From NCBI RefSeq assembly GCF_014075995.1, contig NZ_CP055153.1, positions 4,402,001-4,466,000 of the forward strand: a stretch of DNA of 64,000 bases. The letters run 5' to 3'. Made by a program: the position numbers and the translations under genes. The notes under the pieces were generated by a model. The model searched no databases and had not been told where the DNA came from. It saw only the letters and a list, made by a program, of their open reading frames with translations. This DNA comes from Adhaeribacter radiodurans. GTDB taxonomy: Bacteria > Bacteroidota > Bacteroidia > Cytophagales > Hymenobacteraceae. Positions 46,694 to 47,728 of the stretch are shown here, in pieces; positions within the stretch are counted from its first letter, which is position 1; each line of letters begins with the position of its first letter.

Positions 46694-47728
46694 ATGTACA
46701 ATATTTCACCATCTATAGAAGAAAAAAGAAAATTAAAGCTGCATATTAATCCCAAGCACCCGGTTTGCCAGTTAAAATCTAAAATTCAAGAGTATTTTCC
46801 TGGCTTTACTTGTTTCGATACGTTATCCGAGGTAGTTACGCTTGCCGAAAACTTCGACAGTTTGTTGATTTCGGCCAACCATCCGGCGCGAGCAGTTACC
46901 GATACATATTACGTAGATGCTAACCATGTTTTGCGTACCCACACCTCGGCGCACCAAACCACCTTGCTGCAAAGAGGCGAAACTAAATTTTTAGTTACTG
47001 GAGATGTTTACCGCAAAGACACCATTGACCGAACGCATTATCCGGTGTTCCACCAGATGGAAGGGGTAAAACTTTTGCCAACGGGCACGGATGCTTTATC
47101 AGATTTAACAAAAACGTTAGAAGGATTGATACATCATTTGTTTCCGGGTAAAGAATACCGCTTTTTAGATGATTATTTTCCTTTTACTACCCCGTCTATA
47201 CAAGCCGAAGTGCAGGATAACGGCCAATGGGTCGAAATATTAGGAGCAGGCGTTATTCACCCCCAGATTCTTGCGAACAGCAACGTAGCAGGTACAGGAT
47301 GGGCTTTCGGTTTAGGTATAGACCGATTATTACTTAATTACTGCAGTATTCCGGATATACGGCTACTATGGTCTACCGACGAACGGTTTATGCAGCAATT
47401 TAAGGCCGGATTAACCACTTTCCAGCCTTATTCGAAATACCCGGCGGTTATCCGGGATATTTCTTTCTGGATAAAAGATTACGCTGAAAATATCGAAGGT
47501 CTCTGGAGCCGGCACAATGATTTTAGCGAGTTATGCCGGGAGATTGGTCAGGATTTGATTGAAAGTATAATCGTACTGGATAAATACACCAAGGCGGATG
47601 CAGTATCATTGGCTTACCGGATTGTGTACCAGTCCAACGACCGAACCCTACTCAACGAAGAAGTGAACGAATTTCAGGAAAGAATCAGAACGGAGGCTAG
47701 CCGCCAATTCGGGCTGATTTTAAGGTAA
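46694..47728 (+). CDS. Single-chain phenylalanyl-tRNA synthetase of the mitochondrial type
   Basis: The 344-residue class II synthetase has the catalytic core HTSAHQ (83-88), motif 2 around [21 protein letters not shown] (split at residues 103-112 and 113-123), the Phe-pocket stretches FPFTTPS (162-168) and LGAGV (183-187), and motif 3 [13 protein letters not shown] (202-214). It is directly followed by an FDX-ACB anticodon-binding domain (248-344, starting [12 protein letters not shown]). That architecture is the one of mitochondrial PheRS, not of bacterial alpha-2-beta-2 enzymes. Ordinary pheS and pheT are not in this window. Confidence 0.88.
   Translation: [344 protein letters not shown]

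Follow-up and report, generated by a model that had tools for sequence, protein, structure and literature searches.

A mitochondrial-type single-chain phenylalanyl-tRNA synthetase gene with a likely Phe-codon attenuator in Adhaeribacter radiodurans and other Bacteroidota

In Escherichia coli, pheM is the leader of pheST, where it places Phe codons 5' of a phenylalanyl-tRNA synthetase (PheRS) gene and controls a housekeeping operon. The leader of TrpRS1, an auxiliary aminoacyl-tRNA synthetase of Streptomyces coelicolor, presumably contains Trp codons, and the attenuation of aminoacyl-tRNA operons has reportedly been the subject of a comparative study by Lopatovskaya in 2010. TrpRS1 is resistant to indolmycin, and ribosome-mediated attenuation controls its expression (Vecchione and Sello 2009, 2010; PMC9437257, PMC4787780). 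Auxiliary, antibiotic-resistant synthetases of the Ser, Ile and Trp types are summarised in PMC9437257, and PheRS is absent from the main text of that article.

Here we describe a gene for a single-chain PheRS in a 64,000 nt stretch of the genome of Adhaeribacter radiodurans (contig NZ_CP055153.1, positions 4,402,001 to 4,466,000, forward strand), hereafter termed the window. Like TrpRS1, it encodes an auxiliary synthetase for which we propose attenuation, although it specifies a PheRS, belongs to another phylum and differs in architecture from the housekeeping enzyme. Mupirocin-resistant IleRS2 and albomycin-resistant SerRS are likewise second or acquired synthetases and, according to PMC9437257, antibiotic insensitivity has been shown for them, whereas for the window enzyme we infer it. 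As in pheM, Phe codons lie 5' of a PheRS gene, except that the leader in the window precedes a spare gene. The closest protein counterpart is human FARS2, in which the catalytic core and FDX-ACB domain also form one chain with near-identical motifs and no editing domain; unlike FARS2, the window enzyme is bacterial, accessory to a normal enzyme, shorter (344 aa) and placed under a Phe leader. None of the literature matches listed concerned a bacterial single-chain PheRS, judging by their titles and abstract openings, and an earlier sighting of the leader is possible.

The gene occupies positions 46694 to 47728 on the forward strand of the window (ORF list, Pfam, NCBIfam and BLASTP), with a terminator-like hairpin, read by eye, 3' of it on the same strand (47776 to 47799). 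The initial annotation, made from the sequence alone, had proposed that a PheRS core and an FDX-ACB anticodon-binding domain are joined in one chain of 344 residues, and this is confirmed by the Pfam and NCBIfam models. The class II catalytic core (PF01409, 187.2 bits, motifs intact) covers residues 20 to 236 (46751 to 47401, forward strand) and the anticodon-binding domain (PF03147) residues 247 to 344 (47432 to 47725, forward strand); with 66.7 bits against a cut-off of 31.1, the latter match is real and not spurious. No editing domain was found in the chain with Pfam. On the NCBIfam model pheS_mito (TIGR00469) the protein scores 308.1 bits, above the curated cut-off of 258.35, while on the bacterial pheS model it scores 175.4 bits, under the cut-off of 237.45; proteins of this kind can thus be named automatically by the pheS_mito model. 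It is 42.3% identical to human mitochondrial PheRS over 364 alignment columns (BLASTP), and this human enzyme also provides the closest solved structures in a sequence search (1.6e-96 with the profile of alignment A2). Motif 2, the Phe pocket and motif 3 had been read as FARS2-like, and the motifs quoted are indeed present and nearly identical to those of the human enzyme; the ATP and Phe motifs are intact, such that the essential ATP-site residues have been kept. Finally, an AlphaFold model (pLDDT 83.6) found 3cmq, with the human mitochondrial PheRS fold, as its first PDB match. We consider the protein almost certainly to be a PheRS.

A phylogeny that includes FARS2, as suggested along with the initial annotation, places the window enzyme outside bacterial PheS. 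The trees comprise 20 bacterial single-chain rows representing 19 distinct genes, the second copy of Sphingobacterium tabacisoli appearing twice (L049, L062), and mitochondrial PheRS is represented by one human sequence. When the tree was confined to the catalytic core, the bacterial single-chain rows formed one clade (94/89) with PheS apart (96/91) and, with the phage rows omitted, this clade joined FARS2 at 91/67, which is not a starred value.

Viral relatives were also detected. Viral contigs yielded no relative when scanned with two aligned rows, but 28 loci (L109 to L136) when 17 rows were used; these encode single-chain PheRS that are 39 to 52% identical in the best segment. Among annotated phages, 15 records matched, none across more than 80% of the query. 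Of the 28 contigs, 12 are longer than 200 kb, and a terminase match occurred in nine of 20 contigs tested, six above the cut-off, so that a sizeable share belong to huge tailed phages. Proteins were tested from seven of the 28 contigs; among them are tRNA-His guanylyltransferase, tRNA nucleotidyltransferase, NAD-dependent DNA ligase and Glu/Gln-type and Cys-type class I synthetases. On contig L127, the PheRS gene stands among those for Thg1, an HD phosphohydrolase, an HslV-like protein and an NAD-dependent DNA ligase and, judged by eye from ORF sizes, several other viral contigs appear to have the same gene order. Huge phages can encode as many as 15 tRNA synthetases (PMC7162821, in whose main text phenylalanyl enzymes do not appear), and giant-virus PheRS grouping with organellar enzymes has also been described (PMC11304981).

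The tree incorporating phages was built with 26 of the 28 loci, leaving out L116, which is cut by a contig end, and L133, which was taken as a duplicate of L119 on the basis of equal score, length and ORF sizes; 24 of the 30 PheS rows, SrmL (see below) and two plasmid PheS-like rows were also left out. In this tree, the single-chain set, FARS2 among it, separates from six PheS rows at 100/100, the bacterial single-chain enzymes group at 99/97 and human FARS2 stands beside phages L113 and L115 (99/92). After removal of these two phage rows, FARS2 had no starred home. Constraining FARS2 to group with the bacterial enzymes was barely rejected (AU p 0.049) and constraining it to group with PheS was not rejected (AU p 0.166). 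The position of FARS2 inside the single-chain clade is shaky.

The genome of A. radiodurans retains an ordinary enzyme. A search for pheS and pheT, also proposed earlier, located a pheS frame of 350 aa (G000:C2:5465032) and, of the two FDX-ACB matches in the genome, one is the window gene and the other (C2:946278) lies in a frame of 806 aa, the size of pheT; the single-chain gene is therefore accessory. Canonical PheS is present in all 19 carriers, the copy of genome G458 being in two pieces on two contigs, and all 16 of the other carriers tested have a frame of 800 to 847 aa that matches FDX-ACB.

Scanning genome contigs with the two-row alignment yielded at least 16 loci with relatives that are 60 to 66% identical, all from Bacteroidota by record title; since this pattern scan requires exact short peptides, its count is a lower bound. 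The carriers include Elizabethkingia, Chryseobacterium, Pedobacter, Sphingobacterium and Myroides, a Saprospiraceae MAG and another Bacteroidetes MAG, and Sphingobacterium tabacisoli carries two copies of the gene. A relative within the genus of the window was also found (L005), such that the gene occurs in two of eight genomes there and in two of 59 relatives overall, at a search threshold equal to the SrmL cut-off, which the window and L005 enzymes both pass. Among 173 Chryseobacterium genomes four carry the gene, and among 351 sampled genomes of the S. tabacisoli family also four, in each case one beyond the first scan; in a phylum-wide draw of 395 genomes it was seen only in that of the window. 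The gene is rare and patchily distributed in Bacteroidota. An alignment of the relatives extends over 17 rows and 344 columns without gaps, at 60 to 66% identity across genera. One copy, in Sphingobacterium yanglingense (L044, L060), carries an internal stop codon, and L044 was left out of alignment A2 and of the trees.

Comparison with the housekeeping enzyme demonstrates that the gene moves between genera. The single-chain PheRS of Chryseobacterium G456 and Pedobacter G457 are 95% identical while their housekeeping PheS are 56% identical, and this difference is diagnostic of horizontal transfer; between Chryseobacterium G456 and Chryseobacterium G452 the corresponding values are 72% and 99%. 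The gene thus specifies a spare PheRS of the mitochondrial single-chain type that has spread horizontally. Sharp-ended blocks of DNA are reshuffled in order among L042, L043, L045, L046 and L050, with recurring blocks consisting of the gene and its leader, an AraC regulator gene together with GNAT-186, GNAT-298 and GNAT-155; no repeat family common to the block ends of these five loci was found, and no plasmid DNA match was found for one relative.

The AraC regulator and the 186-aa GNAT occur near the gene in seven of 16 loci. GNAT-186 was detected (E <= 1e-40) in two of 173 Chryseobacterium genomes, both among the four carriers of the PheRS gene, a co-occurrence that by our own arithmetic would arise by chance about four times in 10,000, although both genes may just be moving together in a single block. 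A Vat-type acetyltransferase gene lies directly downstream in L042 (319 bits) and L046 (320 bits, cut-off 300), and the next downstream gene of L045 is also of the Vat type at 262 bits, below the cut-off; this adjacency therefore concerns three of 16 loci with three closely related copies. The second downstream gene encodes a tRNA_edit-family protein in L042 (11882 to 12418) and L046 (11858 to 12418), PF04073 having been matched on L046. Neighbours at other loci include photolyase, OmpA-like, DUF169 and DUF2306 proteins, among others. In the window, the neighbours are cytochrome b561, a molybdopterin oxidoreductase, a lipase, an IS fragment and a histidine kinase, and no resistance gene was found among those tested. 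The remnant of a broken IS transposase lies just 3' of the gene (48401 to 49106, with the integrase core rve on 48603 to 49103), and an apparently truncated ORF of 80 aa (44464 to 44706) resembles what we take to be the start of the large mechanosensitive channel MscL.

Upstream of the gene, positions 46521 to 46682 of the window contain a leader ORF and hairpins that are absent from the initial annotation. The ORF, MLEQKKHIALTSFFFFFGPLGASK (46521 to 46595, forward strand), was identified from the ORF count and the upstream alignment and includes five consecutive Phe codons; its frame is open farther upstream to a TTG, with 46521 as its ATG. An ORF of 8 to 70 codons that includes at least three consecutive Phe codons is found no farther than 300 nt upstream of the gene at 17 of 20 bacterial loci, the window included. 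The same count gave 52 of 2000 on upstream regions with shuffled base order (100 per locus), two of 18 on the carriers' housekeeping pheS genes, 16 of which thus have no such Phe-run ORF in the 300 nt upstream, and none of 26 on the phage copies, L118 and L121 having too little upstream DNA to be included. In the alignment of upstream DNA, the leader typically ends with FFFFGPxGPR, with the variants FFFFGLQGPR (L038), FFFFGLHRPR (L039), FFFFDPPGPR (L042), FFFLGSPR (L037) and FFFAPSG (L040); the run of Phe codons varies from three to eight depending on the locus, and the frame is maintained. Several of the frames start at GTG or TTG, and that of L042 has no in-frame ATG. The Myroides-type copies L051, L052 and L061, which cluster together at 100/99 in the phylogeny with phages, have no Phe leader. 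The immediate upstream neighbour of the synthetase gene in L051 and L052 is an oppositely oriented gene of the AraC family, perhaps reflecting another mode of control.

The leader is preceded by TATTTTTG (46495 to 46502, forward strand), 26 nt 5' of the leader ATG, which fits TAnnTTTG, a sequence that we take to be the consensus -7 box of Bacteroidota promoters. Its distance from the leader start is 25 to 26 nt in the window, L005, L043, L045, L046 and L050 and shorter in three further loci; as a raw count, nine of 17 leader-bearing loci have this motif.

Three hairpins are predicted on the forward strand of the window leader. Hairpin 1 (46566 to 46592) overlaps the Phe codons and the end of the leader ORF and is a consensus hairpin in 16 aligned rows that include the window; hairpin 2 (46602 to 46632) and hairpin 3 (46663 to 46682), the latter immediately 5' of the start codon, come from the fold of the window leader, where hairpin 3 matches that of the relatives by place and not by sequence. 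The whole stretch of the window leader folds with a z-score of -3.76. Seven leaders folded singly gave z-scores of -1.90 to -4.57, two of them being weak (L042, -1.90; L037, -1.91); when folded singly, the window, L041 and L042 leaders each form three hairpins, the first overlapping the final Phe codons and the third next to the start of the gene, and in the best fold of L005 part of hairpin 1 pairs with hairpin 2.

An alignment of 13 of the 17 leaders (L037, L005, the window and L040 being left out) shows the three helices paired in 92.3% of 325 cells, as against 29 to 49% for slid versions of the helices. Seven pairs carry two-sided changes, a number matched by two of 500 shuffles, and five such pairs lie in hairpin 3. 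An alternative pairing of the hairpin 2 loop with hairpin 3 is formed in 95.4% of cells but does not stand out from shuffles, 58 of 500 being as good. A covariance model of the leader, applied to the top 145 first-look candidates of each genome, gave 13 matches in 12 of 19 carrier genomes, each 5' of a copy of the gene. Four diverged leaders, those of the window, L005, L037 and L040, escape this model (L040 is also left out of alignment A3), so that for these the case rests on the leader peptide. On the window leader, the one Rfam match, to IS102, is unconvincing at 17.7 bits where the gathering score is 46, and the loci of four relatives gave nothing at gathering scores. No clear U-run was seen by eye behind any leader hairpin and, for this reason, the switch could act either as a transcription terminator or on translation start. 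We regard the leader and its hairpins as likely to constitute a Phe-codon attenuator.

The spare enzyme would most likely charge tRNA-Phe with Phe on its own, without editing, and its expression is probably under ribosome-mediated attenuation. As long as Phe-tRNA is plentiful, the ribosome would pass the leader Phe codons and the RNA beyond them would keep the gene silent. A block of the housekeeping PheRS would make the ribosome stall on these codons, whereupon the RNA would refold and the spare enzyme would be made. Its purpose would be resistance to a PheRS-directed toxin or antibiotic by replacement of the blocked target. We infer in this way the catalytic activity, the switch, the insensitivity to an inhibitor and the identity of that inhibitor, and we consider such target-replacement resistance, in which a spare PheRS takes over from the inhibited housekeeping enzyme, to be the best of several readings, with a probability of roughly 0.6. 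Of the possibilities raised by the initial annotation, a duplicate with a special role gains support from the retained pheS and pheT, the patchiness, the mobility and the Phe-codon leader, whereas a regulatory synthetase-like protein is disfavoured by the intact catalytic motifs and by the 60 to 66% identity across genera, which indicates a working enzyme. Among the roles offered there, resistance to a block of Phe charging fits best and resistance to Phe analogues less well, because no editing domain was found in the chain.

The gene could also serve as a backup during starvation or stress, with a leader that senses low Phe-tRNA of any cause and an enzyme that supplies more charging capacity or a better Km, no antibiotic being involved. 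The leader would indeed report Phe-tRNA and not a drug, and the window copy has no resistance genes among the neighbours tested. However, such a backup would be expected to be retained by whole clades, yet the gene is confined to four of 173 Chryseobacterium genomes, four of 351 in the S. tabacisoli family and two of eight in the genus of the window, and its movement between Chryseobacterium and Pedobacter, together with the patchiness, is typical of genes required to meet a challenge that arises from time to time; we therefore think this explanation unlikely. Another proposal, that a non-editing PheRS deliberately inserts Tyr or oxidised Phe at Phe codons under stress, derives some appeal from the lack of a detectable editing domain and from the free-standing tRNA_edit gene (PF04073) second downstream in Pedobacter L046, which could hint at an editing problem. 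We judge it highly improbable, given that a housekeeping pheT-size gene remains in the cell, that the leader would respond to a shortage of Phe-tRNA and not to oxidative stress, and that the tRNA_edit gene occurs in two near-identical loci only.

Carriage of relatives by huge phages and the internal stop in L044 could be taken to indicate a phage-derived gene that is decaying without a present function, but this is the least probable explanation of all, as it is contradicted by the 60 to 66% identity across genera over 344 gapless columns and 17 rows, by the conserved leader and hairpins and by repeated transfer. A further alternative is that the window protein belongs to SrmL, the "PheS-related mystery ligase" family (NF051887), and perhaps joins an amino acid to a target other than tRNA-Phe. 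SrmL is also a single-chain PheS-like protein, with a C-terminal stretch that matches the end of the pheT model, and the window and L005 enzymes marginally exceed its cut-off of 300 (308.6 and 313.6 bits). Against this, the window protein scores equally high on pheS_mito (308.1 bits, cut-off 258.35), whereas two clear plasmid SrmL proteins give 524 and 515 bits on SrmL and 112 to 114 on pheS_mito; these are 30 to 36% identical to the window protein in local alignments and, in the core-only tree, form a very long separate branch (100/100) outside the single-chain clade. As the clear SrmL pair groups apart on this long branch, SrmL was rejected as the family of the window protein, which keeps the anticodon domain and the Phe-pocket motifs, and a SrmL-like function is very unlikely.

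The plasmid search matched 56 records, one of which, an SrmL, matched across more than 80% of the query; the remainder of the best 30 of these 56 are SrmL, pheS or unannotated PheS-like places. SrmL genes annotated as hypothetical were seen on Glutamicibacter and Azotobacter plasmids (L035, 11836 to 12954; L036, 11836 to 12948), the former adjoining a Cmx/CmrA chloramphenicol exporter gene with tet(33) about 8 kb off, and PheS-like genes also occur on Azospirillum (L077) and Arthrobacter (L078) plasmids.

On a wider and more tentative proposal, which we hold to be possible but unlikely, the single-chain PheRS would form one old mobile lineage of single origin, carried by huge phages, that was the source of mitochondrial PheRS and that in Bacteroidota became an attenuator-controlled gene for resistance to an undescribed natural antibiotic targeting PheRS. 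Since members of this clade also occur in huge phages, wider sampling could put the origin of mitochondrial PheRS to the test. For these Bacteroidota, a mitochondrial-type PheRS has been added to the ordinary enzyme and, if the switch works as proposed, there would be a natural PheRS inhibitor yet to be found, for which the leader would provide a ready reporter.
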